Below, piece by piece: positions 2,338 to 22,482 of a stretch of DNA of 22,925 nucleotides. The position numbers were made by a program, and so were the translations under genes. This DNA comes from a virus: the IMG/VR virus record IMGVR_UViG_3300035698_006228, positions 1 to 22,925 of that record. One strand, 5' to 3'. The stretch's first letter is position 1, and each line of letters starts with the position of its first letter. The notes beneath the pieces were generated by a model. The model made no database searches, was not told where the DNA came from, and saw only the letters and a list, made by a program, of their open reading frames with translations.

Positions 2338-2340
2338 AAA

Positions 2341-3111: not shown

Positions 3112-5969
3112 TATAGTCTAGCTCCTGAAAATCGTGGTTTTTCTAATTCAAGCCCAATGGTTCTTGATATTTTTCGTGCTAACGATTCGATATTAGTTGG
3201 ATTTGAAATGTCTGCATTTTCAATTTTTATATTTATATTATTTGTCATTCCACCATTACCAGAACCTAAAAATTCATCTACTCTATTTAATGGTATGATA
3301 GCCTCTGGACCAGCTTCACCAACCATTGCAAATGTTGGACTAGTAACGACACCACCAGTTGCGAACGTTGGAAGTCCAGAAACTTCTTGTTTATTATTTG
3401 CTCCTGGAGCAATTTCTACATTACCAACAAATCCACCACCAGTCACACCACCAGGTGCGAACGTTGGAAGTCCAGAAACTTCTTGTCTATTATTTGCTCC
3501 TGGAGCAATTTCTACATTACCAACAAATTCACCACCAGTCACACCACCAGGTTCGAACGTTGGACCAACTACAATACCTGCTGCGACAATACCAGCTGCA
3601 CCAGCTGCAGCTGCTGCACCGAATGTAACAATACTAACCGCTAATGCTAATGGAGCCCATATTGCTAATAGTGCTGCACCAATAGAGGCACTAACTGCAC
3701 CAAATAATAATAATGCTGCAATTGAAGTTGCTGTCTGTATTGCAGCAGTTGCAACAAATACAGCAGTTACTTTCACCATGCTACCAATGATATCATCAAA
3801 TCCTTGAACTAAACTCTGTGCAGCATTTGATGCAAAAGTCAATCCTTCCGTTAACATGCCAACAGATTTAATTGTATCCTCTGGAACTTTTGGTATTTTA
3901 AGTAAGGCCTCTTCTAAATTTTCACCACTACCAAACCCAACTATTGGACCAGACGAAGAAAATTCATCAAATTTATCAATGACATCATCTTTTGCTTTTC
4001 CTAATACTTTGAAATTTTTTGTTAACTTTTCGGTTTCATCATTAATTTCACTATCACGACCGCCAGTTTTTGCTTCAGCACGAATTGGATCTGCGGCTAC
4101 TGGGGTTGTCGTGCCAGTTTTTGCTCTAAAAAATCCACCTAATAATCCACCACCGGCCGCAAATTTTCCTAACTTTGTTCCTGATGCTGCTGATGTCATC
4201 CGGTTAAATAATTGAGTGATTCCAATTAATTGAAAAGATAATTCTACAAACAAATTAGCAAGTTTATCAAAAAATGCACGTTCTAATGTTTTACCTAATT
4301 CTTTAACTGCATCACCAAGATCATTAACATCTCGCAATGCTACACGAAATAAATCTGAAAATGCATCTTGAAATGAATCAGTAGACAATGTAAGAAAAAC
4401 AAATTCTTCATCAAGATCCTCTACTGATTTAGCTACCGTTTGAACTTTTTTATCTTGATTGTCTAATTCATCATTTGTTTGTTCAGTTTTATTTTTTGCA
4501 CGTTCTTGTGTTTTTGAAAAATTTAATAATTGCTCAATCAAGATCGCATAATCAACACCAAGTTGTTCTATCAATAATGCATTATCAACTAACAGTGGTA
4601 ATATTTTATTAACTGCATCACCAACAGATCGTTCTAATGCAAATCCGAGTTTTTTAGCACCCGGTATCAGTTGTAATATTTGGGCAAATGCTTCTGTCAC
4701 AGACAGTGTAAATACAACAATAGCTTGTGCCCCAGAAATTAATATAAGAATCAATGATGATAATGCTGTTGTCGCTGTTAATAACACAAATCCTAATACT
4801 TCTAAAATTGGCATCATCTGTTGCAATACAGACAACACAATTTCTAAATTAGATCCTAAAACTTTTATCAACGGACCAGCTTTACTTACATTTGCAGTTA
4901 ATTTATCTAAGAAGTCATTATATCTAGAACCAACAACTTCACCAATTCTAATTCTAAAAACTTTAAACGCAGAATTTAATCGTGCTTGTTTAAATTCGGT
5001 TGATGCCATGACTTTCACTAATTCTTTTTGAATTGCACCATCACGATCAAGCGCATCATTCATTGCTTGAATGAATCGTGTTGCATTTCCTGAAACTGCT
5101 GCTAATGTAGAATGTGCTCTGATGTTTGGAATTATTTGTTTTTGAATGTCAATATGTAAGTTTGTTAATTTTATTAATGTGTCTGCAAAATTATCACCTT
5201 CTACTGCTACTGCTCCTAATTCAACACCATATTTTTTTGCAATTGCAACCTGAGCACCAGTGGTTTTTGTTAATCCATTTATTATAGCTCTTAATCCAGT
5301 CATTACTTCATCGGTACTTAATCCAAGATCCTGAGTGACAACAAATGCACCAGCCAATTGATTCATATTAACTTTTAATGCTGCTGCAATACCGACAACT
5401 TTACCGAGGGCTTCTGCTAATTCACCAACGGTTACACGAGCAATTCGTTGTGTTGTGATAAGAAAATTTGCGGCATCCCCTGCACTTTTAAATTGATCTG
5501 ATGCATTACACATTAATGTAACAACTGCTTTTGTTGCGGATGCAGTATTTGCAAACCCAGCAACAGCTAATTTAGTTGATGCTGTTAATACATCTAATGC
5601 TTGTGCGGTATCTGTAATTCCAGCAGATATAATATCAAATCCCGCAGCATTGAGTTCTTTTGTACTTTTACCAAATTCTATGGACAATCGTTTTATGCTA
5701 TTTGACAATTGATTAAAAATAGGAGCAGTGTCTTTTACTAATGTAGAAATTTTAATAATTCCAGTTTCATAAGAAGCAAATACCGCAATGGTTTTTTTCA
5801 TTTCCATTGTTAACTTACGAACTGCTATTGTAACTGCAGCTAATCCAATCAAATTTTTAAATGCACGATTTATTTGATTAGCTGCTCCTGATAAATTATT
5901 ACCAGCTTTTTTAAAAGCACCAGACGCTTTACCTTCACCAATGATTGTTACTTTTACATTATTTGCCAT
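3111..5969 (-). CDS. Tail tape measure protein
   Basis: A protein of 952 residues, the tail-length ruler, with AGGA 8 nt before the start. The N-terminus is helical. Residues about 85-345 match the phage tape measure core (LDVLTASTKLAVAGFANTAS, VTLMCNASDQFKSAGDAAN, VGELAEALGKVVGIAAALKV, then LGLSTDEVMTGLRAIINGL). Strongly hydrophobic segments lie at about 380-440 and 735-800, as expected for a protein that enters the host envelope during DNA ejection. The C-terminal part has two near-identical 32-residue units beginning FEPGGVTGG and FAPGGVTGG. It then has the common tape measure ending F-A-T-G-G-V-V-x-x-P-T-F with GEAGPEAIIPLNRVDEF. At roughly 1.5 angstrom per residue the tail would be about 140 nm. 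That figure rests on the general ruler rule and is not measured here. Confidence 0.93.
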   Translation of the reverse strand: MANNVKVTIIGEGKASGAFKKAGNNLSGAANQINRAFKNLIGLAAVTIAVRKLTMEMKKTIAVFASYETGIIKISTLVKDTAPIFNQLSNSIKRLSIEFGKSTKELNAAGFDIISAGITDTAQALDVLTASTKLAVAGFANTASATKAVVTLMCNASDQFKSAGDAANFLITTQRIARVTVGELAEALGKVVGIAAALKVNMNQLAGAFVVTQDLGLSTDEVMTGLRAIINGLTKTTGAQVAIAKKYGVELGAVAVEGDNFADTLIKLTNLHIDIQKQIIPNIRAHSTLAAVSGNATRFIQAMNDALDRDGAIQKELVKVMASTEFKQARLNSAFKVFRIRIGEVVGSRYNDFLDKLTANVSKAGPLIKVLGSNLEIVLSVLQQMMPILEVLGFVLLTATTALSSLILILISGAQAIVVFTLSVTEAFAQILQLIPGAKKLGFALERSVGDAVNKILPLLVDNALLIEQLGVDYAILIEQLLNFSKTQERAKNKTEQTNDELDNQDKKVQTVAKSVEDLDEEFVFLTLSTDSFQDAFSDLFRVALRDVNDLGDAVKELGKTLERAFFDKLANLFVELSFQLIGITQLFNRMTSAASGTKLGKFAAGGGLLGGFFRAKTGTTTPVAADPIRAEAKTGGRDSEINDETEKLTKNFKVLGKAKDDVIDKFDEFSSSGPIVGFGSGENLEEALLKIPKVPEDTIKSVGMLTEGLTFASNAAQSLVQGFDDIIGSMVKVTAVFVATAAIQTATSIAALLLFGAVSASIGAALLAIWAPLALAVSIVTFGAAAAAGAAGIVAAGIVVGPTFEPGGVTGGEFVGNVEIAPGANNRQEVSGLPTFAPGGVTGGGFVGNVEIAPGANNKQEVSGLPTFATGGVVTSPTFAMVGEAGPEAIIPLNRVDEFLGSGNGGMTNNINIKIENADISNPTNIESLARKISRTIGLELEKPRFSGARL
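3361..3564 (-). repeat. 96-bp tandem repeat, two full copies plus a short third, inside tape measure gene
   Basis: Copies start at 3361 and 3457, and a partial copy starts at 3553 and fades after about 12 bases. The period is exactly 96 bp (32 codons), so frame is kept. The two full copies differ at only a few positions (for example near 3393 and 3432). In protein terms each copy encodes F-x-P-G-G-V-T-G-G-x-F-V-G-N-V-E-I-A-P-G followed by A-N-N-(R/K)-Q-E-V-S-G-L-P-T. The near identity suggests a recent in-frame duplication. Confidence 0.9.
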
Positions 5970-8130: not shown

Positions 8131-8622
8131 TTACGAGGTACTTGTGTGTGTGATTACTTGCACAGTTACTGCGCTTGCAACTAAATTTGCACTCAGTGCG
8201 AACACAAAGCCATCTTCAATAGGTTCGTATTCAACATTAGTTGGTGTCATCCGTTCTACTTGTGCATTAGTTAATGTCAATCCTGACAATCTATTATTAT
8301 TTAATATTACTTCTGTAATTGCATTTGTTGCATCAATCTTATCTTCTAACACAAGATCTGCAACAGCAAAAGTTTTTACAAATACAATTCTATATGTATA
8401 TGTAACTGTATATCGTAAATCAGTCGTTCTAATTTTTATATCAGCACCTGGTTGTGGTTTAACAAACACACCAGGAATGACACTATTTAATTCAGCAGCA
8501 CTTTCATAAAATGAAATGTCTCCTAAATTTACAGATTTCAATCCTAACGAACTAACCAATGCAGTGTGAATTAATGATCTGATCTTTTCACCAATTTCTT
8601 TTGTATATAAGATTTGTGACAT
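8131..8622 (-). CDS. Probable tail terminator protein
   Basis: A protein of 163 residues whose ATG follows directly on the stop of the gp10-like gene. It starts with a helix (TKEIGEKIRSLIHTALVSSL), has a loop with AELNSVIPGVFVKPQPGADI, a beta strand pair around RYTVTYTYRIVFVKTF, and a long helix DATNAITEVILNNNRL. It ends with strands (FVFALSANLVASAVTVQVIT). This helix-strand-strand-helix-strand order with a central Y-x-Y-x-I/V-x-F is what tail terminator proteins (lambda gpU and SPP1 gp17 type) show. The place after the gp10-like gene and before the tube gene agrees. The protein would cap the finished tube and join it to the head. Confidence 0.7.
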   Translation of the reverse strand: MSQILYTKEIGEKIRSLIHTALVSSLGLKSVNLGDISFYESAAELNSVIPGVFVKPQPGADIKIRTTDLRYTVTYTYRIVFVKTFAVADLVLEDKIDATNAITEVILNNNRLSGLTLTNAQVERMTPTNVEYEPIEDGFVFALSANLVASAVTVQVITHTSTS

Positions 8623-9087
8623 TTAATTCAACCCCAATTCTGCAATTAATGTATTCAACTTAGTTTCCATTATATTAATTATTCTAGGACGTGATTGTTC
8701 TAGTCCCCGATGTAAAAATAATTTAGGTGCAATGCCTCTACCTTTTTTCACCAACAGTCCACTTTTCAATGCGGTTCTTAATCCAACAATGTCATTTTCA
8801 TCTATACGATTATCGTATGTTCCAAATTCTTGATATGGTGCATATGGTGCAGCCTGTCCACCAGCAAAAACAACAGCATGCAATGTATGTGTATTAACAA
8901 CACCTTTCATACTAGCTCGCAACGACCCTGTTTGTCGTGGTGTTAATGGTATTGCACGTGTGATAACTTCTTGTGTGCTTTCGTATAATCCAGCTGCAAT
9001 TTGTTGTTTTAATCTATTTGGAAATTCATATGCAAGTTTATTAATAACTTGAGTATGACCTGATATTCTAATTTTTAATTTTGTCAT
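8623..9087 (-). CDS. HK97 gp10-like head-tail / tail completion protein
   Basis: A protein of 154 residues overlapping the previous gene by a TAATG junction. It has the family hallmarks: an N-terminal helix (HTQVINKLAYEFPNRLKQQI), AIPLTPRQTGSLRASMKG, then HAVVFAGGQAAPYAPYQEFG followed by TYD, i.e. P-x-x-T-G-x-L-R-x-S and Y-A-x-Y-x-E-F-G-T. It then has a helical end with APKLFLHRGLEQSRPRI. Family knowledge: HK97 gp10-type proteins act at the neck in tail completion. The neighbouring head closure and tail terminator genes fit. Confidence 0.88.
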   Translation of the reverse strand: MTKLKIRISGHTQVINKLAYEFPNRLKQQIAAGLYESTQEVITRAIPLTPRQTGSLRASMKGVVNTHTLHAVVFAGGQAAPYAPYQEFGTYDNRIDENDIVGLRTALKSGLLVKKGRGIAPKLFLHRGLEQSRPRIINIMETKLNTLIAELGLN

Positions 9088-9440
9088 TATGATATTACTC
9101 TATTACGTTCTTTTAATAAAACTTCTAAATGATGGTTCATTGCAAAATATTTTCTTTTTTCTAATGACTTTACTTCGTATTCAACAGCATCTTCATCGAT
9201 AACAATATCTTCTATTTTCATATTTACACTAATATTTGTAAATAAACGATGTGTTGCATTTGGCACACGACCAATAAATCCAGTAACAATATCACCTCGT
9301 AATGGTTCGAATCTACCACGGTTCTCTGTGCTAATGGTTGAAAGTGTTTTTGTACTTTTACCAGTTGTTGTTGTATACGCAGTTCTTTTGATCGTATACA
9401 AATCTGTAAATAGATTGTTTAAAATACTATTGTCCGCCAC
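9087..9440 (-). CDS. Head closure / head-tail joining protein
   Basis: A protein of 117 residues with a GTG start at 9440 (GGA about 7 nt upstream), overlapping the connector gene by 14 bases. It is beta-rich with a typical pattern: DLYTIKRTAYTTTTGKSTKT, then ENRGRFEPLRGDIV, followed by THRLFTNISVNMKIEDIVID and EYEVKSLEKRKYFAMNHHLE. This is the layout of SPP1 gp16/HK97-type head-tail joining proteins, where H-x-L-x-x-x is followed by D-x-V-x-x-x-x-x-x-Y-x-V and a final H-x-E-V. It would plug or extend the connector before tail docking. The assignment rests on pattern and gene order. Confidence 0.78.
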   Translation of the reverse strand: MADNSILNNLFTDLYTIKRTAYTTTTGKSTKTLSTISTENRGRFEPLRGDIVTGFIGRVPNATHRLFTNISVNMKIEDIVIDEDAVEYEVKSLEKRKYFAMNHHLEVLLKERNRVIS

Positions 9441-10101
9441 GATTTATTCCAGTCTGCCCTTCTGTTGAAAACATACGAATATCTTTATACATATCTAGTG
9501 AACTTAAAATTTGTGCAGGGACTCCAGCAAATTTATTATTGGCTGTATCATTTGGCGTATATTTTACACTAAATTGTCCAAGCCGATAACTATCAATGCC
9601 TAACCTCATATCTTTATTTCTAAAGAAAAATGCGACTAAATCTATTTGTGCCATCACTAATGTTTTTGGAATACTCGCAGTTGCATATCCTGCAATATAC
9701 ACAACTTTTATATTTTTATCCCCTTTTGAAAATACCACACCATCGACACATAAAATTTCACCAGCATTTTCACCATCTGGATCATCTTCATCAATAATAA
9801 TATAATCACCTTCTACGGTAGTTGTATCTTTTATTAACAATGTGCCGCTACCAAATGTTCTATTTGGATCATCATGTATTGTTGTGACACTAATTATTGG
9901 ATATTCTCGCAATGTAATTAAAGATGTCATGCCATCACCAGATTGTAATTCAGTAATAGTACGACTAAATATATTACGACCTAAATAATCTTGTATCATT
10001 TTAGTTGTTCGACTGATCATATTTGTTATCAATGAATCATCATTTGTACTAGTTATTTGTAAAAATTCTTTTACTTCATTTAGTTTTGCAAAATCTGCCA
10101 T
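9427..10101 (-). CDS. Head-tail connector (gp6/gp15-like adaptor)
   Basis: I chose the ATG at 10101 (224 residues; MADFAKLNEVKEFLQI) because GAGG lies 6 nt upstream. The in-frame ATG at 10119 lies inside the preceding glycosyltransferase gene and has no SD. The protein begins with the adaptor helices (LNEVKEFLQITSTNDDSLIT, MISRTTKMIQDYLGRNIFSR). A beta-rich insertion follows with SLITLREYPIISVTTIHDDP and an acidic loop DEDDPDGENAG. It then has the family signature VYIAGYATASIPKTLVMAQI and a helix with DLVAFFFRNKD. G-Y-x-x-x-x-x-P-x-x-L-x-x-A is characteristic of phage gp6-like connectors, which form the ring below the portal. The stop is TAG. Confidence 0.87.
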   Translation of the reverse strand: MADFAKLNEVKEFLQITSTNDDSLITNMISRTTKMIQDYLGRNIFSRTITELQSGDGMTSLITLREYPIISVTTIHDDPNRTFGSGTLLIKDTTTVEGDYIIIDEDDPDGENAGEILCVDGVVFSKGDKNIKVVYIAGYATASIPKTLVMAQIDLVAFFFRNKDMRLGIDSYRLGQFSVKYTPNDTANNKFAGVPAQILSSLDMYKDIRMFSTEGQTGINRGGQ

Positions 10102-10102
10102 G

Positions 10103-10801
10103 TTAAACCTCAATCCCAATCATTTTATTTATACGATTCATTGTATATTCATCAGGGCATTTTAATCCATAATGTGAAACTTTTGGATGCAGTTCTTGAT
10201 GGTGCAATAAATTATCACAATCTATAAACATTGAAATTCCTTCTGCATTGCATCTCATAGAAAAGAAAAAATCTGCACCCATGCCAGTTCCACCAACTAT
10301 ACGATGTTCATTAGTTTCTGGAATTATATAATTCCAATTAGTTCTAAACCATGGCAATCCAATTTTATCAAACACAGATTTTTTAATTAAACATCCACCA
10401 AATCCAACAGCATATACTTGAACTAATTCACCAGGTCTATACAATCGTTCATCTAATTCTGGATATGTAATCGTTGAATGTTTTTTAAACAATAATAATT
10501 TTTGTTGTTTGCCTCGTGTACTTGTTAAACAACTTATTACTGATAAATTGTGACTGTACATTGTTGCAATTGTTGTATCTAAATCAATATCTTCTGGTGT
10601 CATGTCACTATCAATCATAAAAATATATTTATAACCACCGTTATACATTTTACTAATCAATATACTACGAGCGACTTCTTGTGGTAAATTCATAACAATC
10701 TCAACATCAAAATTTGTTGAATCCAACCACTTTTGTAAATTCGTTGGTAGTTCCCGTGAAATTCTTGGCATTGCGACCAATACATCAGTATATATAGCCA
10801 T
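10103..10801 (-). CDS. GT-A fold glycosyltransferase (family 2-like) within head-tail gene cluster
   Basis: A protein of 232 residues. It shows a Rossmann-like start (DVLVAMPRISRELPTNL), then YNGGYKYIFMIDSDMTPEDI, where DSD at 64-66 is the metal-binding DxD motif. An acceptor-side segment follows, with AVGFGGCLIKKSVFDKIGLP and WFR. Next is GGTGMGADFFFSMRCNAEGI (a variant of the G-E-D-x-x-F motif, with D177) and IDCDNLLHHQ with paired histidines at 200-201. It has no signal peptide or membrane segment, so it acts in the cytoplasm with a soluble sugar donor. It lies between the post-capsid gene and the connector, and the connector start is coupled to its stop. I infer that it glycosylates a virion protein, or a cell-wall or DNA acceptor. 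Donor and acceptor cannot be read from sequence. Confidence 0.85.
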   Translation of the reverse strand: MAIYTDVLVAMPRISRELPTNLQKWLDSTNFDVEIVMNLPQEVARSILISKMYNGGYKYIFMIDSDMTPEDIDLDTTIATMYSHNLSVISCLTSTRGKQQKLLLFKKHSTITYPELDERLYRPGELVQVYAVGFGGCLIKKSVFDKIGLPWFRTNWNYIIPETNEHRIVGGTGMGADFFFSMRCNAEGISMFIDCDNLLHHQELHPKVSHYGLKCPDEYTMNRINKMIGIEV

Positions 10802-10812
10802 AATAGCCTTTT

Positions 10813-11595
10813 TTATAAAACGGTTGGTTTTATTTTTTTATGTTTTTCACCAGCATCTAAATCATCTGATGGATCGTCAAATTCTAATTCTGAGGCAATA
10901 TCATCTATATCAATTTCTTTGCCAGCTTGCGTAGTTGTTATTGCATCAAGATCTTCTTCTGGGATATTTGCTGGATCATTTTCAAGTTCAATATCTTTTT
11001 TCTTTAGACCATGTTTCTTTTTCGTTTTAACTGCGCTATCATTTTTATGTGGATAACAATATCGTAAATTTGTTTTTTGATTTCCACCAATCTCATCTTC
11101 ATTTGCTTTAGCAAATGTTACATATGCATTCAACCCAATAAAATCATTGTTACGCACAATGTATAATAATTCTTCTATTGATTTAATAATATGAACTTTC
11201 ACTTTATCTGCTTTAAGATTTGCAGTAAACCTACTGAATAATGTAATAGATTTATCGACACCAACTTTTCGTATGCCACCATTAACAATAGTAACTTTAT
11301 TTTGTCTTACATACCGATTAGCAGCACCTTCTGTAATATTTCGTATAAGTTTTTCGCCCACTGCAGAATCATCTGAACTTATAATGTGCCATTTATCTGG
11401 AAAATCATGTGTTAATTGTAATGCTTTTTTTTCACTGATAACTGCTTCTTGCCCAGATCGTATAGATAAACTTGAAATATTTAAATCAGCATCATCCCCT
11501 CTATAAATATCTGAACTTACATTCTTTATTGTAACCGTGTTTATCTTCACATCTTCTACATTATGTTTTTTTATTTTTTTAACTGTTAATGCCAT
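10813..11595 (-). CDS. Unknown structural-region protein with acidic C-terminal tail
   Basis: A protein of 260 residues with AGGAG 9-10 nt before the ATG. Residues about 15-75 look like a small beta domain (INTVTIKNVSSDIYRGDD, LSIRSGQEAVISEKKALQLT, PDKWHIIS), a pattern seen in short phage proteins placed after the capsid gene. The middle part has KVHIIKSIEELLYIVRNNDF and FIGLNAYVTFAKAN. The C-terminal 70 residues are low-complexity, first lysine-rich (KTKKKHGLKKK) and then acidic (PEEDLDAI, DIDDIASELEFDDPSDDLDA), with a final KHKKIKPTVL. I do not recognise the full protein. Decoration, neck or assembly roles are possible. Confidence 0.7.
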   Translation of the reverse strand: MALTVKKIKKHNVEDVKINTVTIKNVSSDIYRGDDADLNISSLSIRSGQEAVISEKKALQLTHDFPDKWHIISSDDSAVGEKLIRNITEGAANRYVRQNKVTIVNGGIRKVGVDKSITLFSRFTANLKADKVKVHIIKSIEELLYIVRNNDFIGLNAYVTFAKANEDEIGGNQKTNLRYCYPHKNDSAVKTKKKHGLKKKDIELENDPANIPEEDLDAITTTQAGKEIDIDDIASELEFDDPSDDLDAGEKHKKIKPTVL

Positions 11596-11639
11596 GATAT
11601 AAATCTCCTAATTTACAATTTCAATTTACCGTTATATGG

Positions 11640-11670
11640 GAGGGTGTTTTTATTACTGACGAACACCCTC
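11640..11670 (-). other. Stem-loop between capsid gene and downstream genes
   Basis: GAGGGTGTT (minus strand 11670-11662) pairs with AACACCCTC (11648-11640), nine bp plus a possible G-U pair, with a loop of about 11 nt. No T tract follows on the minus strand, so it is not a canonical terminator for these genes. It could protect the 3' end of capsid mRNA or attenuate read-through. Confidence 0.6.
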
Positions 11671-11731
11671 AAAAACGCCATTTTTTTTATCCTTGGTTTC
11701 ACGTCCATATTATTGAACTACACATAATCTA

Positions 11732-11769
11732 GATAAATAATATTTATCGCTCCCAAGCATTAAAGCGAT
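11732..11769. repeat. Overlapping palindromes just downstream of the capsid stop
   Basis: GATAAATA (11732-11739) and TATTTATC (11741-11748) form a perfect 8-bp inverted repeat around one base. ATCGCT (11746-11751) and AGCGAT (11764-11769) form a second inverted repeat that shares bases with the first, so the two hairpins are mutually exclusive. Protein binding or RNA processing are possible roles. Confidence 0.6.
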
Positions 11770-11790
11770 TATCAACACTCTAGCTATCTA

Positions 11791-13320
11791 TTAGTTCACT
11801 AGAATATCAATAACAGTAGCAACTAGATCATTGTTCGTAGTATCTTCTGTTGGTTCAAAATCCAGTCTCTGTTTGACAACCATAACCATTTGATCGGTTT
11901 GGATATCTTCAAAAGTTTTCAACGTAATTGAACGTCGATCACCATACCAGAAACGAGTTTTGTTTACCACATGAAGAGTTGTACGGCCAACATTCGTTCC
12001 ATCATACACACCAGACGCACCAACATCCTCGCGGATATATTCGGATACAATAACCGGCATACCATCAAATGCACCTAATTGACCAGTAAGTATAGTTGCT
12101 TTTGCACCTAACTTATCTAATGTCCTAAAATCATTGAAACCATTAGAATCACTTTCGGCTAACATCTGATGAAATCCATTCACACCAGCTACAATTGCCA
12201 ATTCAGCAGGATTGATACCAAACTTATCCAGTGTCTTACGAGCATTACGAATGTCAGCAGCAGCTAAAGCATTTCCACCAGCATCAATTTTGCCGTTTGC
12301 ACGAGTTATTTTACGATAACCATCCCACGCTTTTCGAGCATCTGTTGCTGAAGTAACATCACCATCTTGGTGAGTCGCTGAATCATCTCCATTAATAGTA
12401 GCAGTTTCAACGCCATTAGCCAATGCAGTTGCAATTTTTTGTCTAACAAAATCAATGATATTAATAATACTAGCTTCATTAATTTCCTCAGAAAAAATTG
12501 TACGCACTGCTAACTTTTTAGCGGTGAACGTGACACTAGATGTTCCTGGAGTAGATGATGTTATGCGTCCAGCTTCCGTTGCGTCTACAGTAGCTTCAGT
12601 AGCCAGTACAGCAGTAGCATCAGATCCTTCCAATGGAACAGTAAACGGATTTGATGTCATAGGAATGCGATCATGAAGAGCAGCCACTTTTAATGCCAAT
12701 CGTTGTTTTTCAATCAACTGTGCAGAAAAATTTGTTGGAACAAATTCATCGCCAGAACCAGAAACGGTTGACACTAAAGCTTTCGCTGCAAAATCCTCTG
12801 CCATCTCAGAATACTCTTGCCACATTTTCAATTCTTTAGGATTCTTTTGAAGGACTTTCGACACAATCAAAAGTTCATCATTCATATCATGAAGTTCTCT
12901 TAATTCTTCGCCAAATCGCTTCACCCATCTACGGGGAACCATTCCAGTAATTGCATGTTTAAAAGTAAACTGATTTGAAAGTTTGCCTTTCAATCTTCCG
13001 TGCATACGAGCACCTGGATCTTCGGCATCAACACCACTAAATCCACCTTTACGTGCAACTGCAGATCGGCTTTCATGATCTTCTTTAGCTTTTTTATCAA
13101 GAATTTCAGCAACCATCGCTTTTAATTTTTCAGGATTAGTTTGCATACTCTTAATGCGATCGCTAACTTCATGAAGCAACCCACGTACATCTTTTTCAGC
13201 TACATGTACATCACTCGCAGGATCAGTAACAACTTCCGTAACAGCAGCAACATTTACTTTTCTTTGCTCTTCTTGTTGCTTTTCACTCATTACTTTTTCA
13301 TCGTTCGTTTTTTCAGCCAT
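11791..13320 (-). CDS. Major capsid protein, HK97 fold, with N-terminal scaffold-like domain
   Basis: A protein of 509 residues with the strongest SD in the window. Residues 1 to about 185 are charged and helical (EVSDRIKSMQTNPEKLKAMV, GEELRELHDMNDELLIVSKV, MWQEYSEMAEDFAAKALVST), resembling the delta/scaffold domain that the prohead protease removes. The mature HK97-type part starts near SGSGDEFVPTNFSAQLIEKQ. It continues with RIPMTSNPFTVPLEGSDATA, KKLAVRTIFSEEINEASIIN and the A-domain segment ILTGQLGAFDGMPVIVSEYI, and ends with RTTLHVVNKTRFWYGDRRSI and MVVKQRLDFEPT. All are standard for the phage capsid family. There is no separate scaffold gene, and the protease-ATPase gene lies immediately upstream. 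A cut near residues 180-190 is inferred, not shown. Confidence 0.95.
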   Translation of the reverse strand: MAEKTNDEKVMSEKQQEEQRKVNVAAVTEVVTDPASDVHVAEKDVRGLLHEVSDRIKSMQTNPEKLKAMVAEILDKKAKEDHESRSAVARKGGFSGVDAEDPGARMHGRLKGKLSNQFTFKHAITGMVPRRWVKRFGEELRELHDMNDELLIVSKVLQKNPKELKMWQEYSEMAEDFAAKALVSTVSGSGDEFVPTNFSAQLIEKQRLALKVAALHDRIPMTSNPFTVPLEGSDATAVLATEATVDATEAGRITSSTPGTSSVTFTAKKLAVRTIFSEEINEASIINIIDFVRQKIATALANGVETATINGDDSATHQDGDVTSATDARKAWDGYRKITRANGKIDAGGNALAAADIRNARKTLDKFGINPAELAIVAGVNGFHQMLAESDSNGFNDFRTLDKLGAKATILTGQLGAFDGMPVIVSEYIREDVGASGVYDGTNVGRTTLHVVNKTRFWYGDRRSITLKTFEDIQTDQMVMVVKQRLDFEPTEDTTNNDLVATVIDILVN

Positions 13321-13332
13321 GTGTTTTTTACA

Positions 13333-13340
13333 CCTCCTTT
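13333..13340 (-). promoter_or_regulatory. Strong ribosome binding site for the capsid gene
   Basis: AAAGGAGG on the minus strand, followed by TG, matches the 16S anti-SD almost completely. The ATG lies 12 nt after GGAGG, a slightly long spacing. It fits the high capsid expression expected. Confidence 0.7.
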
Positions 13341-13367
13341 CGTCCAGAATAGGATAATTTATAATAA

Positions 13368-16300
13368 CTAATCAATAAAATTTTCATTTATCAATTTAGT
13401 TAATTTTTCTGCAATATCATCATCCGACATAACTATACTGGCATCGAGTGATTCATTAACACTTTTTAATAAATATTTACATACAGCTTCTTCAGTATTA
13501 TTTTCAAGTAGATCAATTAAAAATTCCATAATTTTTAATAACGTATCACTATCAACATTATCTTTAACCATAGTATCAATAATGTCATTCATAATATCTT
13601 GCGGCACATTGTATATTTTTTCATTCAAACTTTTTGATATATGTGATTTTGATTTCATTGTCGCATACATATCTTTCATTTTTGTTTCAGCTTTACTACC
13701 ATATTCAATTCGAATACCCATAATCTTTTTTAATGATTTTTTTAAATCCTCTATCATAATATTCTCTCTATTATTATCAACAGAAAGTAACATTGCATAT
13801 ATTATTAATTCTTTTAAATGTGAACCAGTCAATCCATCACTGTCTTTTGCAATAACCTTTAAGGATTCATCCCTATTATCAATAACCATATTTACTGAAT
13901 GTATTTTTAAAATATCAAATCTTAACGATTCATCAGGTAATTCAAATTTTATAACATCATCAAATCTACTTGGTCTATCAATTAAAGCTTTTGGAATGTT
14001 ATGTGGAAAATTGGTGCATAGAATTGTGACCAATCCATCCATCGATTCTAATCCATCCATTTGAGTTTTTATAATATCAATACAAGATGAAGATGTTACG
14101 TAATTATCGATATCTTCCGCAAATATAATACATGGTGATAATTCTTTAGCCATATCAAATATGTATTCTATATCAGATGGATATATTAAATCACGAGCAG
14201 TTGCCCATATAAATGTGACATCAGACTTTGACATTAATATTTTTCCAGTTAAGGTCTTGCCAGTACCTGGTTCGCCAGCAAAAATCATTCCTCGTTTAAA
14301 TGGCAAATTATTTTTTATGTACATATCTTTTTTATTAAAAAAATCTAATGTACTAACTTTTATACTTTGCTTTTTATCTTCTGGTAATTTAACATCATCA
14401 AATTCATATTTCACTATTGGTAAAAATTTACCTTCAACATCTAATGTTTCATTTTTATAAAAGTTGTGATCTGCCATCCATCGTTTATGCGTATTAAAAA
14501 ATTCAATAACGTTGTCTGTGCAGGTATCTTTATAATATGTCCCTATATTTATTCCACTGTATATTGTGTACAATTGAAATACAATAGGAACACCATCTTC
14601 ATTTTTTGTAAACACAAAACCTTCTATTAACAGTTCTTCTTTTTTTTCGCGGCCAGTTTGCAAATATGCATATTCACACCTAACTAATTCACCCCGATAT
14701 CCTAAATTAATTATTTTTTCAATCTTATACTTTTCATTTACTAATACTTCAAAAAATGATTTTATTGCCAATGCAATTTTAAATCGTCTAAAACTAAATC
14801 CAATATGTTTTTGTATATGAGATGGTACCCCAATAAAATCATCTATTGTTCCACCTTTTGTTATAGGTCGAAAATCTTTTTTAGATTCACAATACTTTTT
14901 TAAATTTTCATGTTCTATTAAAGTTTTAGATTCATTATATGATTTATCTTCTGGATTTTCTTGTGTTGAATCACCTTCTTGGTCTTGTGTAGATTCTGGA
15001 TCTGATGCTTGATCTAGATTTATTACATATTCATGTTTATGATTGTCCACAATTTCTGTAGCATTCAATTCTCGAATAGGATGTTCATGATCTTGGTTCA
15101 TAGCTGCTAATCCATCAACTGATGTAATCTGGCCATTTTCATCACGTTCAACATATATCTTATATTCATGTGTGTGGCTTGTTGTTGCATCACTAGATTC
15201 CGAACCAGTCGTTCCAGTATATTCGACTTTTTCATTTTCAGCTTTTGTTTCAACCAATGCCTTCACTGTTTTAACAAGTTCATCGGATGACATATTTTTC
15301 AAACACATTTTCTTTTCATGCATCTGTTCAATCAACTTATTTCTAAATAATGTACTATCTTTAGAAACGGCTATTTGATTTGTCACTGTATCTTTATCAT
15401 TATCACCAATAATATCCGTACCATGTTTTAATGCTTTTGCTAATGAAAATAAACTTTGTCTGTTTGATGGTATGCTAACAACAGACACTTCAAATAATTC
15501 TAAATCTGTAATGCGTCTAACTTCAAGTTTTTCATCAAACACAGCATCTTTAATCATAAACCCAATACTGAATGCTTTTAAAATATTTTCTTTAATTTTT
15601 TCACCAATCTTTTCTTCAGTCTTACTAATACTTGCTCTAATGAACAATCCACCTGTTGGTTGCTTTATACTTTTATTGCCAAACATTAATTCTTCATTTG
15701 GTTTAACAATTTTAACATCAATTACTTTTCCAATTGGTTCCATCCAATTATGCATATAGCACAAAACAGGATTGTCCATAAAAGAACTCAATGTTGTTTT
15801 AAATGCAGCGTGATCTACAATATCTAAATCTCTATCTATTTCACCAGTAGATGCAAATCCTTCAATTATTAATTCATTTCCTGAACCTTTTTGTTCTACA
15901 GCTTTTAATTCTACGTGACTGTATACCAATTTTGGACGTTCCATTATATCAGTCTGTTTCATGCTTGTTGCCTCCTTACCATCTGTGTTTTTACGGTCAT
16001 ATAAAATGTACTGAATACCATCATCGACCATCTGTTCTTTTTTTGTTTGTGTTTCACACAACTCATAATCAAATTGAATATATGTAATTGTATTATCAGT
16101 TTCAATTTTTTTAGCTATATTATATGAATGGGTGTTCATCCATGTAATGATTTCATCACTATCATATATTTCTTTATCAAATACAATTGATTGTGGAATA
16201 AGTGCCTTTACAGTTTTAATGCAAACACCTAATTCAAAATCTATATATTTTGGTATGCCAATTATACGTTTCACACCAACTACAAATGATGAACTTTTCG

Positions 16301-16499
16301 GTACAATAACATTTATGTCAATATTTCGATTAGATAACCATGTTTGTATTAATCCAATAGAATTCCAATATTTTCTATTAAATGCAATGTTAACAATCTG
16401 ATCAACTTTTACACACTTACCAACAGAATTTTTTAAATAATCTCCCATTCGATGATTAGATTTTTCTGAATTTGGTGTTGATTTATTCATTGAATCCAT
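13368..16499 (-). CDS. Prohead protease fused to AAA+ ATPase
   Basis: One continuous frame of 1043 residues with AAAGGG 9 nt before the ATG. Residues 1-150 form an N-terminal part, including QSIVFDKEIYDSDEIITWMN and the T-x-x-Y-I-Q-F-D segment often seen ahead of phage proteases. Residues about 190-355 are an HK97-type prohead protease: IIEGFASTGEIDRDLDIVDH, the likely catalytic His250 in CYMHNW, Ser311 in LKAFSIGF, and LELFEVSVVSIPSNRQSLF with Glu337. A charged linker (360-540) carries HTH (442-444), HEH (471-473) and HKH (487-489). Residues about 540-735 are unassigned. Residues 735-930 form an AAA+ module: Walker A GEPGTGKT (742-749), Walker B IIFAEDID (791-798), sensor 1 TILCTN (825-830), likely arginine finger in DRPSRFD (841-847), and sensor 2 region GLTGSHLKELIIYA (889-902). 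A helical tail ends the protein. The protease role in head maturation is known. The coupled ATPase role is inferred. Confidence 0.93.
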   Translation of the reverse strand: MDSMNKSTPNSEKSNHRMGDYLKNSVGKCVKVDQIVNIAFNRKYWNSIGLIQTWLSNRNIDINVIVPKSSSFVVGVKRIIGIPKYIDFELGVCIKTVKALIPQSIVFDKEIYDSDEIITWMNTHSYNIAKKIETDNTITYIQFDYELCETQTKKEQMVDDGIQYILYDRKNTDGKEATSMKQTDIMERPKLVYSHVELKAVEQKGSGNELIIEGFASTGEIDRDLDIVDHAAFKTTLSSFMDNPVLCYMHNWMEPIGKVIDVKIVKPNEELMFGNKSIKQPTGGLFIRASISKTEEKIGEKIKENILKAFSIGFMIKDAVFDEKLEVRRITDLELFEVSVVSIPSNRQSLFSLAKALKHGTDIIGDNDKDTVTNQIAVSKDSTLFRNKLIEQMHEKKMCLKNMSSDELVKTVKALVETKAENEKVEYTGTTGSESSDATTSHTHEYKIYVERDENGQITSVDGLAAMNQDHEHPIRELNATEIVDNHKHEYVINLDQASDPESTQDQEGDSTQENPEDKSYNESKTLIEHENLKKYCESKKDFRPITKGGTIDDFIGVPSHIQKHIGFSFRRFKIALAIKSFFEVLVNEKYKIEKIINLGYRGELVRCEYAYLQTGREKKEELLIEGFVFTKNEDGVPIVFQLYTIYSGINIGTYYKDTCTDNVIEFFNTHKRWMADHNFYKNETLDVEGKFLPIVKYEFDDVKLPEDKKQSIKVSTLDFFNKKDMYIKNNLPFKRGMIFAGEPGTGKTLTGKILMSKSDVTFIWATARDLIYPSDIEYIFDMAKELSPCIIFAEDIDNYVTSSSCIDIIKTQMDGLESMDGLVTILCTNFPHNIPKALIDRPSRFDDVIKFELPDESLRFDILKIHSVNMVIDNRDESLKVIAKDSDGLTGSHLKELIIYAMLLSVDNNRENIMIEDLKKSLKKIMGIRIEYGSKAETKMKDMYATMKSKSHISKSLNEKIYNVPQDIMNDIIDTMVKDNVDSDTLLKIMEFLIDLLENNTEEAVCKYLLKSVNESLDASIVMSDDDIAEKLTKLINENFID

Positions 16500-16516
16500 T
16501 GTGTATTACCCTTTCA

Positions 16517-16858
16517 TTACGGCGAATAATGATATGATGCTAACACTGATGTATTAACACCACCGGTTGTTGTTATACCAAGACCTTCACCCGGCAATGT
16601 TTTTAATGTTTTATATAATTCTTGATCTATTGGTAATGGGACTCCTGCTATAAGATCAAATGCTGGAGTGATTGCAGTTGAACTACCTTTACTTAATAAT
16701 GTAACGGTGCCTGAACCAGAATTAACAATTAAAATTCTATCAATAATAATACGTTGCTTTCCAGCAGGCGCATTATCTCCAGGTGCAATCAATTCTTCAT
16801 TTGATTTGTTTCCTGTTAATTTAGTAGACAAACTTCTTTTTTTTAATCCATCAGCCAT
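16517..16858 (-). CDS. Small beta-rich protein between portal and protease genes
   Basis: A protein of 113 residues. Its ATG overlaps the portal stop (TAATG), with GGAG upstream. After a basic N-terminus (LKKRSLSTKLTGNKS) the rest reads as a beta sandwich: QRIIIDRILIVNSGSGTVTL, TPAFDLIAGVPLPID, LPGEGLGITTTGGVNTSVLA and a final SYHYSP. The ending resembles small phage proteins with a G-x-G-L-x-I-x-x-x-x-x-x-x-x-V-x-x-x-Y pattern that I associate with decoration or fibre-base proteins. I am not certain of a family. A capsid decoration or neck role is inferred from position only. Confidence 0.65.
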   Translation of the reverse strand: MADGLKKRSLSTKLTGNKSNEELIAPGDNAPAGKQRIIIDRILIVNSGSGTVTLLSKGSSTAITPAFDLIAGVPLPIDQELYKTLKTLPGEGLGITTTGGVNTSVLASYHYSP

Positions 16859-19173
16859 TATGATTTCTCCTTATTTTGTAATAGTGCATTGTATAATTTA
16901 ACTTTACATTCTTTCATTAACAATTCATTAAATGTATAATGAAGTTTTCGTTTCACAATTTTAAATCCATCAGTAAATCGTACTTTTCGTTTACATCGTT
17001 TACCATGTATTGCACGAGTTCCAATTCCAGTTCCTGACACATAGGATTCAATGCATCTACAATTAATAACTTCTTCTGGCGGTGCACCCGATGCATGCGG
17101 ATGTAATAATCCATTTGCTGGATATGGTTGATCTAATGGTAATGGGGTTTCGTTTGAAATCGTATCATTTTGCATATGGGTAAATCGTACTTTATCATCT
17201 CGAACACTAATCCATACTTTAAGTAAATTAAGATCTGGCATTATTGCTTTCGTTTGTTCCATACCTAATCTTCTTCCACGAGACAACCCGGTATTCACTT
17301 CAGTTTCTACGATAGTATTAATTCGGCTATCAATTGCTTTACCTGTTAATTCTGTTTTCATACTACGACGAATGTCAACCAATGATGCACCCTCATCCAA
17401 TGCATTAGTTAATATTCGACGTATTCTTTTTTTTGTTGTTTCTGTTATTGATGTAGATGATTCAAATGCTCTATTTTTAATAAATTCTCTAAACAATGGA
17501 TCTGTTAAATTTAATCCAGGTGATGTTCCTAAATTTAAATCAATCGCAATTTCTAATATTGAACTGTTGCCTCCTGCTGCAGTTATTCCTTCTAATATAG
17601 GTGTTAATAGTATTACTAATTTATCAACATTTTCTGCTTCTAGAAATATTGAATCAACTGAAACGCTTTTACTATAATATTTTTTACGTTTATATTTCAT
17701 TAATCGAGATAATTTTTCTTGTACACTTGCTTCTAATTCGATGAAATATGTTTTTAAATTTTGAGTTAATGTTTGTTCAAACGGTTGCCGTATAATATCA
17801 CTTTGTTTTATAAGAAACGCAGCTTTCTCTTTTGATACACTATTAACAGAAATAGGGATCTCAGTATTTTCTGTATTAAGTATTGGCATTCCAGTTTCAA
17901 TATCAATTTGTTGGGTATTCATTGGAACGTTTAATACATCACCAGTAGGTATGGTTTCATATCCCAATTCTAAACGAGCTTCATTTGTAGTAATAATACC
18001 CCCTGTTTTTATTTCATTTACACGTTTCGCATCATCGTTTGATATAGCACTCAATGCGTCTACACTAGACAATATGAATTTAATTTCTAAATTACCATCA
18101 TTAACATTAAATCGTTCAAAATCAGGAGTCAACTGTTGATTTATAGCAGCTTCTACTTTTTTAATTTTATGCACCATTGTAGTTTCCCAAAACACTTCAC
18201 GTTGTACTTGTGCATTTGCTCGTATTGCTGTGTCAAACACACCAACCATTGCAGGAGGAACCCCAAACACAGCCAATATTTCTTCTCGATTAAATTTTCT
18301 TAATTGTAAAAATTCTAAATCTTTTGGAGCAAACCCAAGTTTATCAACTTTAATATCACTGCCTTGTGTGACCAATGCTGAATGTGCTTTATTAACTCCA
18401 CCAAATGTTTGTTTTATTTGGCTTGCTAATCGTTTAAAATTTTTACCGGTCATTGTATCTTGCACAATAAACATCATATCTGGTCGTGCTGAATTAGAAA
18501 AAAACTTTTTATTATATGCTATAGAATTTTCTTCTTGCATTAATGCATCTGATGCAGAACTTAATGGTGATAATCCCCAATAATCATTCATAGGATGTGG
18601 GTACTTTAAATGCAACACATTACGAGTTTCAAATGTTTTTCGTGCACCATTAATTTCAAAGATATATTCTTTTATATAATGTGTGCTATCTGGTACGATT
18701 TCTATTCTAGTTGGTCGTAATAAATATATTGATGTAATAACATTGAATTCATTTCTTACTAATTCCCAAAAACAATTACCAGTAGATTCTAAATATGTAT
18801 ATGTTAATTCTATTAAATCATGTTGTGTCATATATGGATTTGGATTTCTTAATAATGTTAACAATGGATGCGATACATATTCTTCCATTTCACCATCAGA
18901 ATCTGTACTATATAATGCTAATGGAATTCCAGCAGCAGCATTACTAATTGTAAAAATGGATGCATACACCCATACAAACCTTTCGTACGAGCTTAAAAAT
19001 CTTTGCATATTCTTTGTTGGTTTACCTTGACTTGAGTATTGTGATTGACCAGCTAATTCAACTAATACACTTGTTGCCTTTTCATTGATTTGTTGTTTAG
19101 AAATTGCAACAGGAATTCGTTTAACATTTTTTGTATTCATAATTTTCTGTGATGTTTGTTTTTTTATTGTCAT
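16858..19173 (-). CDS. Portal protein fused to MuF head morphogenesis domain
   Basis: A protein of 771 residues. Residues about 60-420 are an HK97-type portal: YERFVWVYASIFTISNAAAG, HPLLTLLRNPNPYMTQHDLI, the TYLESTGNCFWELVRNEFN strand-helix pair, VLHLKYPHPMNDYWGLSPLS, then NREEILAVFGVPPAMVGVFD, the last being the clearest portal signature. Residues about 600-710 are a MuF-type domain: SRINTIVETEVNTGLSRGRR, VWISVRDDKVRFTHMQND, LHPHASGAPPEEVINCRCIE (D-x-x-V-R-x-x-H ... N-C-R-C). The domains are joined by a helical stretch (440-600). A basic C-terminal tail follows (KRCKRKVRFTDGFKIVKRK). The portal is the dodecameric gate for DNA. MuF proteins are minor head proteins, some ejected with DNA. Fusion into one chain fixes them at equal copy number unless it is processed, perhaps by the nearby protease. 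Confidence 0.92.
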   Translation of the reverse strand: MTIKKQTSQKIMNTKNVKRIPVAISKQQINEKATSVLVELAGQSQYSSQGKPTKNMQRFLSSYERFVWVYASIFTISNAAAGIPLALYSTDSDGEMEEYVSHPLLTLLRNPNPYMTQHDLIELTYTYLESTGNCFWELVRNEFNVITSIYLLRPTRIEIVPDSTHYIKEYIFEINGARKTFETRNVLHLKYPHPMNDYWGLSPLSSASDALMQEENSIAYNKKFFSNSARPDMMFIVQDTMTGKNFKRLASQIKQTFGGVNKAHSALVTQGSDIKVDKLGFAPKDLEFLQLRKFNREEILAVFGVPPAMVGVFDTAIRANAQVQREVFWETTMVHKIKKVEAAINQQLTPDFERFNVNDGNLEIKFILSSVDALSAISNDDAKRVNEIKTGGIITTNEARLELGYETIPTGDVLNVPMNTQQIDIETGMPILNTENTEIPISVNSVSKEKAAFLIKQSDIIRQPFEQTLTQNLKTYFIELEASVQEKLSRLMKYKRKKYYSKSVSVDSIFLEAENVDKLVILLTPILEGITAAGGNSSILEIAIDLNLGTSPGLNLTDPLFREFIKNRAFESSTSITETTKKRIRRILTNALDEGASLVDIRRSMKTELTGKAIDSRINTIVETEVNTGLSRGRRLGMEQTKAIMPDLNLLKVWISVRDDKVRFTHMQNDTISNETPLPLDQPYPANGLLHPHASGAPPEEVINCRCIESYVSGTGIGTRAIHGKRCKRKVRFTDGFKIVKRKLHYTFNELLMKECKVKLYNALLQNKEKS

Positions 19174-19178
19174 AGCAC

Positions 19179-19412
19179 TTAATCCTCAAGTTCAAATTTA
19201 TGCACGGTTCCTAAATCTTTGTTATCTTGCATTGTATTAAATTCAGACATTTCTTCTTCATCTTCAATATCAACAATTGGACAAAAACATCGTGGACAGG
19301 TATCTAATTCGACATCTTCATCATCACCACCATTATCCATATCAAATACATTATCAATTTGAATTGCTGAAAATCCACAATTTTTACATTTAATAACAAT
19401 TTTATTTCTCAT
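19179..19412 (-). CDS. Zinc-ribbon protein, acidic
   Basis: A protein of 77 residues starting within the terminase stop (ATGA overlap at 19412-19409) and ending just before the portal gene. It has two CxxC pairs, CKNC (9-12) and CPRC (39-42), the latter followed by another Cys, separated by an acidic spacer (FDMDNGGDDEDVELD). This is a zinc ribbon of the rubredoxin-like/transcription-factor type. The C-terminal part is acidic (VDIEDEEEMSEFNTMQDNKD). Small zinc-ribbon proteins are common next to phage terminase and portal genes. Function is unknown. A role as terminase partner is inferred from coupling only. Confidence 0.75.
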   Translation of the reverse strand: MRNKIVIKCKNCGFSAIQIDNVFDMDNGGDDEDVELDTCPRCFCPIVDIEDEEEMSEFNTMQDNKDLGTVHKFELED

Positions 19413-21040
19413 ACGGACACCATAGAAACTTCACTTGTCCCAATTTTACTATGTTTACCTTTTCTATCTTTACGTTTTGGAGCCCAGTTTAACAAACCAC
19501 ACAAGGCAGCATCTGGACCATGGTCATCTCGTTTCACATAATTACCATGATCATCATACCGGTATCCTGATAATTGATTTACAAACTTTTCATATCCAGG
19601 ATTTAAATCACCATTATAATATTTAATAATCCGTAACCGATCTTTTTCCAATAAATTTTTTATATTCTTTACACCAAAATCTTTCCAAACATTAAACGGC
19701 ACAGATATTGTATGAACATGATCACATAATTTATTATTTTCATATGCGCCTTCTGCATCTGCCAATACCATATCATGACCATCTTGTTTAGCACGATCTT
19801 TAATATGATCAACGGTTTGATCAATTCCTAAATGTGTGAAATATTCCACACGATATATGTAAATTTTTTTGTTATAAAAAAATGCATAAATGATTGCACA
19901 TTCATTTGCGAACCCCCAATCTACTCCAATGGATTTATTTAATCGTCGTAATGTTTTTTGACTCAATAAAAATTCTTCAACCAATGCTTCATCAATTTTA
20001 TCTCCTGGATATACTTTACCTTTACGTTGTGCTTTCCTACCTAAATATTCAACTTCAAATGTTTCGCTATCGGTTTCTATATATGCTTGAAAAATTTCAC
20101 GTAATTGAATCCATCCTTCTGTTGCTTTTTTCCAATCATATTCTTTCATATATCGTTTTGTCCAATTACCTTCTTTCGAACATTTAAATATCAATCCATC
20201 ATGTCTTGCACGGCCTCGACAATATCCTTTTTTTGATATAACATCATCAGCACCATATGTATCTTTTCTTAATGCATCATAACAACCATTCTTTGGATCA
20301 TCCTTTACACTAACCCAGCATTTGCGTGTGCAATGCTCACACACATCAAATATATCCCACCAGAATCGCGTATAACCTTGTTCTCTGGCTTTGTCCCAAA
20401 CTTCTTCAAAGGTATCATCTATTCTATGCTGAGTGCTTGCACGGATGATTGCTGATGGATTGGCACTATCAACAACTGGTTTCGCAGACTTTACAATCTT
20501 GGGATCTTGGATTTCGCATTCTTCATCTATAAATAACAGTCCACCTTTTTTTGGTCCTCCTGGATGCGGTGAACGTACTGATCTACTAGATGTTGCTAAT
20601 ACATTAATCCATGTACCATTTCTTTTTTTAGTTCGTTTTTGAATACTAGATTCAATGTGGCGTGCTACGGTTGGATCTAGTATAAATTCTTGCACGATTT
20701 CATATGCTTTATCTGCTTGTGCTTTCGAACCACCAAGATTAACACAATCATAATCAAAAAAATGAAACAATGGAAATTCAATTCCACCAGCAATTGAAAA
20801 AGTCTTACCACCACCACGAGGTGCACGAACAACAGAACGAATAATAGAATGGTCTCTTGCTTTATTTAAATGCCACACAATCATTTGTCGTATTTTAGGA
20901 ACCAATATTAATCCAGCTTTTCTTAGAAATGCTAAAATATCATCTGTTGTGAAATCATAATGCACAACTTCTTCCTGTAGCATTTTAGACATTTGCTTAT
21001 AGAAATCAATTTCGGTTTTTAAATCAAATTCTGCTATCAT
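19409..21040 (-). CDS. terL: Terminase large subunit (ATPase plus nuclease)
   Basis: A protein of 543 residues that packages DNA into the prohead. The ATPase domain has Walker A APRGGGKT (73-80), Walker B LLFIDEE (168-174, catalytic E173/E174) and a coupling motif ASTQ (201-204). The RNase H-like nuclease domain has its first acidic residue at D374 (GVDWGF), a second at D428 (LADAEGAY) and a third group in RDDHGPDAA (D505-D510). Between the two domains lie six cysteines, C234, C237, C241, C253, C274 and C287, in a stretch that looks like a zinc-binding insertion. The stop is TGA, overlapping the next start. No separate small terminase gene is recognisable in the window. It may lie outside or be one of the unrecognised proteins. 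Confidence 0.95.
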   Translation of the reverse strand: MIAEFDLKTEIDFYKQMSKMLQEEVVHYDFTTDDILAFLRKAGLILVPKIRQMIVWHLNKARDHSIIRSVVRAPRGGGKTFSIAGGIEFPLFHFFDYDCVNLGGSKAQADKAYEIVQEFILDPTVARHIESSIQKRTKKRNGTWINVLATSSRSVRSPHPGGPKKGGLLFIDEECEIQDPKIVKSAKPVVDSANPSAIIRASTQHRIDDTFEEVWDKAREQGYTRFWWDIFDVCEHCTRKCWVSVKDDPKNGCYDALRKDTYGADDVISKKGYCRGRARHDGLIFKCSKEGNWTKRYMKEYDWKKATEGWIQLREIFQAYIETDSETFEVEYLGRKAQRKGKVYPGDKIDEALVEEFLLSQKTLRRLNKSIGVDWGFANECAIIYAFFYNKKIYIYRVEYFTHLGIDQTVDHIKDRAKQDGHDMVLADAEGAYENNKLCDHVHTISVPFNVWKDFGVKNIKNLLEKDRLRIIKYYNGDLNPGYEKFVNQLSGYRYDDHGNYVKRDDHGPDAALCGLLNWAPKRKDRKGKHSKIGTSEVSMVSV

Positions 21041-21930: not shown

Positions 21931-22482
21931 CTACTGGTTAACATACTCACGTAAAAACTGCACTAAAAATTCAAACGTGAATTCATTGCTAATTAAGTAT
22001 TGATTGAACACATACATCACATCATCACTATCAAATTCACCATCACTATCAAAATCCATGGTACTGGTCATTGTTACTGTAAAATCTTCAACATTAATCA
22101 TTTCACCATCTGGACTAGCAGCTTGTAAATCCGATACTGTAAGTGTAAGGATATTATCATTCGTTGGCATAATTTCAAAAATTAAATTATCACCTTCGAG
22201 TACTGTATTATCTAAACCATACACCAACCACTTTGTTCCATTTGCGACTAATTCTTTATTTGGAAATTCCTCTCGAATTTCAATGAACTCACCACCGGTT
22301 ATTTCAACATTCATACTATTTATTGCAGCAATCCATGTATGTTCTGGCATTTGTACTCGCACCGATTTACTTTGACCCGGTGTATATTTATCACCAGAAG
22401 TCACCGTTACATCTGCAGCAAATGATATAGATATTGAAAATCCTAAAACCGTTATTACAATTGCCAACAATTTTCTAAACAT
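21931..22482 (-). CDS. Secreted cohesin-like plus dockerin-like protein
   Basis: A protein of 183 residues with a strong SD (AGGAGG 6 nt before ATG). A Sec signal peptide spans 1-22 (MFRKLLAIVITVLGFSISIS, cut near FAA/D). Residues about 23-140 form an all-beta module like cohesin or related carbohydrate-surface domains: VTVTSGDKYTPGQSKSVRVQ, IAAINSMNVEITGGEF, GDNLIFEIMPTNDN, then TLTVSDLQAASPDGEMINVE. Residues 143-154 are an ideal EF-hand-type loop, DFDSDGEFDSDD, as in one dockerin repeat, followed by a helix (VMYVFNQYLI) and a short helical end. A second calcium loop is missing, so the dockerin is half-length. It would be exported from the host cell. Attachment of virion or host surface proteins is a possible job. 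Confidence 0.72.
   Translation of the reverse strand: MFRKLLAIVITVLGFSISISFAADVTVTSGDKYTPGQSKSVRVQMPEHTWIAAINSMNVEITGGEFIEIREEFPNKELVANGTKWLVYGLDNTVLEGDNLIFEIMPTNDNILTLTVSDLQAASPDGEMINVEDFTVTMTSTMDFDSDGEFDSDDVMYVFNQYLISNEFTFEFLVQFLREYVNQ

Follow-up and report, generated by a model that had tools for sequence, protein, structure and literature searches.

A prohead protease and an AAA+ ATPase joined in one head gene of uncultivated tailed viruses

We report a viral gene in which an S78-type prohead protease and an AAA+ ATPase are joined in one polypeptide. The gene lies in a 22.9-kb IMG/VR virus record (IMGVR_UViG_3300035698_006228), one metagenomic fragment of 22,925 nucleotides that was analysed whole and is referred to here as the window. 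Both modules are intact and strictly conserved, and they are kept together, or as neighbouring genes, between the portal and the capsid. We read the gene, with moderate confidence, as a head gene of a siphovirus-like tailed virus whose single product combines the serine protease of capsid maturation with an AAA+ ATPase of the single-ring type.

The frame had been predicted from the DNA letters alone as 1043 uninterrupted codons, with no strand given; its coordinates (13368..16499) proved exact, and it opens from an ATG on the minus strand with a Shine-Dalgarno-like GAAAGGG 9 bases 5' of the start. Pfam, PHROGs and NCBIfam concur in placing a prohead-protease domain at about residues 197-352 and, at about 700-940, an AAA domain of the classic clade. 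The AlphaFold2 model consists of two folded blocks joined by a disordered linker, with pLDDT mostly above 90 at residues 210-350 and around 90 at 570-930, and low confidence at 1-205 and 355-570. The gene divides into the following parts.

13368..16499, minus strand: whole fused gene, prohead protease, linker and AAA+ ATPase, 1043 amino acids plus stop
15912..16499, minus strand: N-terminal extension, residues 1-196, low-confidence structure
15444..15911, minus strand: S78 prohead protease domain, residues 197-352, from Pfam, invariant residues and a herpesvirus-protease fold
14793..15437, minus strand: linker, residues 355-569, mostly disordered
14295..14792, minus strand: ATPase N-domain, residues about 570-735, family-specific, pLDDT about 90, family profile A6
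13662..14288, minus strand: AAA+ module, residues 738-946, Pfam 71.5 bits, conserved in 76/76
13371..13661, minus strand: helical C-terminal tail, residues 947-1043, from sequence and the AlphaFold2 model

Most relatives lack the N-terminal extension and start shortly before the protease. The linker varies from 47 to 333 residues across the family; in the window protein it contains a small His-rich beta segment (444-495), and L013 has one too. A separate AAA+ product from an internal start was considered and is unlikely for the window gene, but may occur elsewhere in the family. Some kind of candidate, a Shine-Dalgarno motif with a start codon in the linker, is present in 32 of 70 relatives; the linker of the window gene has no in-frame start with such a motif, and those of L245, L250 and L256 have no in-frame ATG whatsoever. 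The last three fused proteins carry long, charged, coiled-coil-like tails C-terminal to the AAA+ module, and in the split locus L249 a comparable tail sits at the C-terminus of the protease; such tails are possibly a scaffold segment.

Within the protease half, the motifs named in the original prediction are present as placed or at equivalent positions, His250 at 15750-15752, Ser311 at 15567-15569 and FEVSVVSIPS at residues 336-345, and Pfam assigns residues 197-352 to Peptidase_S78 (47.5 bits, cut-off 21). The NCBIfam equivalog TIGR01543 scores 48.3 bits, below its cut-off of 59. Because the match is above the Pfam cut-off yet below that of TIGR01543, this half appears to be a divergent S78 member at most, and Pfam alone finds Peptidase_S78 at E<0.001 in 21 of 53 fused relatives. 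Ser311 is conserved in 76/76 fused proteins and His250 in all 75 that reach that position; Glu337 and Ser339 are likewise invariant among the 76. The protease profile found no sequence relative in the PDB. The predicted protease block alone, from a 58-row alignment, has a mean pLDDT of 88, and the protease model (mf6dc54bf4fa4) has herpesvirus capsid-maturation proteases in its top 33 PDB matches, the best being the HCMV protease (E 4.2e-4).

The other half is a classic AAA ATPase with Walker A, Walker B, a sensor-1 asparagine and two arginine fingers. Pfam matches AAA at residues 738-853 with 71.5 bits against a cut-off of 21.2, and both predicted domains thus score above their Pfam cut-offs. 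Walker A is GEPGTGKT (742-749; 14253-14276), Walker B is IIFAEDID (791-798; 14106-14129), sensor 1 is N830 and the arginine fingers are R842 and R845. Lys748, Glu795, Asp796, Asp798, Asn830, Arg842 and Arg845 are invariant in 76/76 fused proteins, as is the E-D order of Walker B in place of the usual D-E, an order also seen in BCS1-type ATPases. The module had been predicted to be complete; all of these elements stood, with the exception of sensor 2, where a G-[AS]-H motif (892-894) occupies the expected place and no canonical arginine could be shown. Comparison of the 76 sequences also showed that the aromatic-hydrophobic-glycine pore loop 1 is not conserved; the loop is variable, and any aromatic-small pair occurs in this region in 42 of the 76 members.

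By profile the AAA+ module is closest to PAN, FtsH and Cdc48. The best PDB match of the full predicted model is YjoB, across the whole YjoB chain, followed by PAN, Rpt and FtsH; YjoB reportedly acts as a chaperone. The named ATPase families tested with NCBIfam models (FtsH, PAN, Cdc48 and IetA) all fell far below cut-off. Two identities were rejected on this basis: FtsH scores 94.6 bits against 600, and the protein contains no M41 HExxH zinc site, while the anti-phage ATPase IetA (IteA; NF042959) scores 42.8 bits against 510. The ATPase N-domain has no sequence relative in the PDB.

Overall identity to the window protein is 23-29% for most relatives; since the catalytic residues are invariant despite this, both active sites have been maintained. 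Among close pairs, dN/dS is mostly 0.02-0.17 in the N-domain and AAA+ module, indicating strong purifying selection, and it is also low in the protease in those comparisons with unsaturated synonymous sites. Values for the protease and linker are less informative because synonymous sites there are often saturated.

The fused gene sits in a head module transcribed in the order TerL, portal-MuF, a protein of 113 aa, the fusion itself (1043 aa) and the HK97-type capsid protein; genes for head-tail adaptor, neck, tail tube, tape measure and Dit come next. The predicted position of the fusion upstream of the capsid gene was borne out, with portal-MuF on the other side.

19409..21040, minus strand: terminase large subunit, phrog_2 at 5e-15
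16858..19173, minus strand: portal-MuF fusion, upstream of the protease-AAA+ gene, PF04860 at 2.6e-67 and phrog_2662 at 2e-100
16517..16858, minus strand: 113-aa protein between portal and fusion, no family match in Pfam or PHROGs
11791..13320, minus strand: HK97-type major capsid protein, PF05065 at residues 193-492 of 509

The gap between the fusion and capsid genes contains the Shine-Dalgarno sequence of the capsid gene, AAAGGAGGTG. About 190 residues precede the capsid fold in the capsid protein; they are presumed to be a delta domain and are the likely substrate of the protease. Directly behind the capsid region, a glycosyltransferase-like protein is encoded (10103-10801, minus strand; phrog_1574), a PHROG that recurs in related loci. 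Elsewhere in the window, a predicted secreted protein (21931-22482, minus strand) carries a DxDxDGxxDxxD calcium-binding, dockerin-like tail and has no Pfam match.

The original prediction had proposed a search for the same fusion beside capsid genes in other viral contigs. IMG/VR was scanned with profiles built from the AAA+ part only, with one further scan using the whole family alignment, and 73 de-duplicated loci, the window included, encode an S78 protease and the AAA+ in the same open frame; the original prediction thus withstood its own refuting condition, the lack of any homologue with both domains. De-duplication dropped identical tails only, and the 73 loci still include related sequences. 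The association with the protease is not circular, because loci were selected by their ATPase. In 13 further loci the protease is in a separate nearby gene, and five end at a contig edge. The one remaining full-length case, L260 (3789-6536), has a divergent protease-like N-terminus ahead of the AAA+, with VSIGF and LLEVSA motifs, that the S78 profile missed. Among the 73 fused loci, 42 have the portal upstream and the capsid downstream, 30 have one of the two and one has neither; the fusion and the capsid frame lie a median of 104 bases apart.

Fusion or adjacency of AAA+ and protease is kept in every locus that is read far enough. An AAA+ tree of 92 family rows has two clades, with the window in the smaller (14 rows), and the fused or split state changes at least seven times on it. 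The ATPase gene precedes the protease gene in L249, L252, L254, L255 and L259, where the ATPase stop and the protease start share 1-8 bases, mostly as ATGA; several such overlap cases belong to clade A. The two genes are 31-41 bases apart in L015, L165 and L185. Three of the 13 split loci are untidy. In L196, protease and AAA+ overlap in different frames (1134-1670 and 1601-4102) near a duplicated stretch, a frame break that may be a sequencing error or a frameshift. L261 (5140-9624, 1495 aa) and L273 (334-5802, 1823 aa) are very long multi-domain frames in which the AAA+ lies behind stretches that, by eye, resemble metallo-beta-lactamase and/or a LigD-like ligase, with the protease encoded in a later frame. 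L012 and L015 have different portal (phrog_113) and capsid (phrog_371) families, and the association therefore spans two head lineages; their protease carries a second head-maturation-protease domain, phrog_976.

One pair of loci divides the gene. In L225 and L228, 99.4% identity extends over a 10.4-kb block (about 8140-18537) that starts in the linker and takes in the AAA+ and capsid genes. The protease half across the same pair has only 38% protein identity (measured between L228 and L241, a locus with 99.9% identity to L225), and the portal side upstream also differs, placing the recombination point inside the fused gene, in the linker. This one recombinant pair suggests joint inheritance of the AAA+ half and the capsid side, and of the protease half and the portal side.

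As to hosts, L207 carries a tRNA-Tyr of bacterial type, with a long variable arm and an encoded CCA. The N-domain profile, for which the positive control worked, found no fused relative in genomes sampled from archaeal and bacterial phyla: about 295 from the phylum of a Methanoperedens locus, 327 from that of a Woesearchaeota locus, 396 from that of a Pedobacter locus, 399 from that of a Clostridiales locus, 228 from that of a Sifarchaeum locus and 100 from that of a Bipolaricaulota locus. Its only two matches, L243 and L244, are cellular archaeal ATPases, and ordinary cellular AAA proteins were among the matches listed in a scan of cellular genome contigs. In both L243 and L244 the AAA ATPase lies beside a gene that by eye is like RNase P Rpp30, and a weakly similar region stands just before the AAA+ module.

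Each half has known counterparts. HK97-type prohead proteases with a Peptidase_S78 domain (PF04586), for example those of T5-like Klebsiella phages and Serratia phage Kamaji, are alike in domain, catalytic Ser and His, position before the capsid gene and a herpesvirus-protease-like fold (predicted here); unlike the fusion, they are about 170-430 residues long in the records examined and have no ATPase. Herpesvirus assemblins (the HCMV, HSV and PRV maturation proteases) match the protease model in fold and are likewise synthesised as fusions with an assembly factor, namely the scaffold, but they too have no ATPase. YjoB and the classic-clade ATPases PAN, Rpt, Cdc48 and FtsH have the AAA+ module in common, with the YjoB match spanning the whole chain, but no S78-type protease, and their family models score the fusion far below cut-offs. 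Stand-alone AAA ATPases of N4-like phages (Erwinia phage Frozen gp37, Pseudomonas phage Arace01) contain a related module at about 23% identity; these genes are unfused, lie outside the head module and adjoin genes for another AAA protein and a metallopeptidase. Prohead protease/capsid fusions (NCBIfam NF045541), as found in thaumarchaeal proviruses (PMC6563490), likewise join the protease to another head-assembly protein, but the partner there is the capsid protein, whereas here it is an AAA+ ATPase.

The original prediction knew of no standard phage architecture of this type, and we found none in known phages or the searched literature. Among 50,697 phages and 72,556 plasmids no record covers both halves or reaches 80% coverage of a family member. 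Single-protein scans in which the query was the fusion or TerL gave no match, and in a library of viral structure models prohead proteases and AAA ATPases are separate proteins. The literature search returned no description of an S78-AAA+ fusion; subscription papers and preprints were mostly outside its scope, and an earlier description is possible.

We favour, at about an even chance, the view that the AAA+ half uses ATP to remodel the capsid or procapsid, in a fixed ratio with the protease, and is not part of a degradative AAA+ protease. The AAA+ half would assemble into a ring that would spend ATP on remodelling capsid or procapsid proteins, as a capsid-assembly chaperone or a remodeller of scaffold or delta domains. 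Through the fusion, protease and motor would reach the assembling procapsid in equal numbers. The protease would then cut the N-terminal delta domain of the capsid protein and may release itself from the motor. It could free itself in this way after assembly, because prohead proteases are known to auto-cleave, as described for SPN3US gp245 (PMC7411985). Tethered in this way, ring and maturation protease would constitute an ATP-powered capsid-maturation machine, making an energy-consuming step of head assembly separate from DNA packaging, a proposal that we regard as evenly balanced. The target of the AAA+ could instead be the portal, the ends of the DNA or a protein of the host; portal-MuF remodelling, which the original prediction had raised, gained no specific support, and in L225/L228 the AAA+ half goes with the capsid side.

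A remodeller or chaperone is more likely than a protease that unfolds and destroys, because the pore loop is not conserved, the best structure match is YjoB and the linker is flexible. A viral Lon- or FtsH-type protease, in which the ring would unfold capsid delta domains or scaffold and thread them into the attached protease, where cleavage would depend on ATP, is unlikely. Protease and AAA+ do share a chain as in FtsH and Lon, the profile affinities are to PAN, FtsH and Cdc48, and the residues of both active sites are invariant; yet the canonical Ar-hydrophobic-Gly loop is not conserved in sequence (with some aromatic-small pair in 42/76), the long, disordered linker of 47-333 residues differs from the rigid coupling in FtsH, and two-protein versions exist. 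To our knowledge, moreover, prohead proteases need no ATP to cut exposed sites. The idea of ATP-driven unfolding and feeding, originally drawn from ClpXP, Lon and FtsH, is weakened because the canonical aromatic loop is not conserved; the mechanism set out in the original prediction is plausible overall.

Slightly less probable again is that fusion serves co-expression only, with the protease freeing itself early and the released ATPase doing an unrelated job on portal, DNA or host. Auto-cleavage of prohead proteases (PMC7411985), the stand-alone AAA+ genes in the early region of N4-like phages and the separate exchange of the two halves by recombination would all fit, but a free ATPase need not remain beside the protease through seven fused/split changes, and every locus with enough readable sequence, in two capsid/portal lineages, has them fused or adjacent. 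A missed stop or chimeric contig, conceivable for a single metagenomic fragment, has a negligible chance of explaining the gene, as 73 de-duplicated loci, drawn from many metagenomes, show this domain order within a single open frame, which rules out chance or misassembly.

Capsid maturation in HK97-like viruses and herpesviruses is regarded as needing proteolysis and DNA packaging, without a dedicated protein-remodelling motor. A widespread family of protease-AAA+ fusions would supply evidence from nature that such a motor exists, and whether ATP is used in capsid maturation beyond the terminase becomes a directly testable question. The family would also give an annotation to a gene in many uncultivated viruses. 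Its presence in many uncultivated tailed viruses suggests that they build their shells with a previously undescribed energy-driven step.
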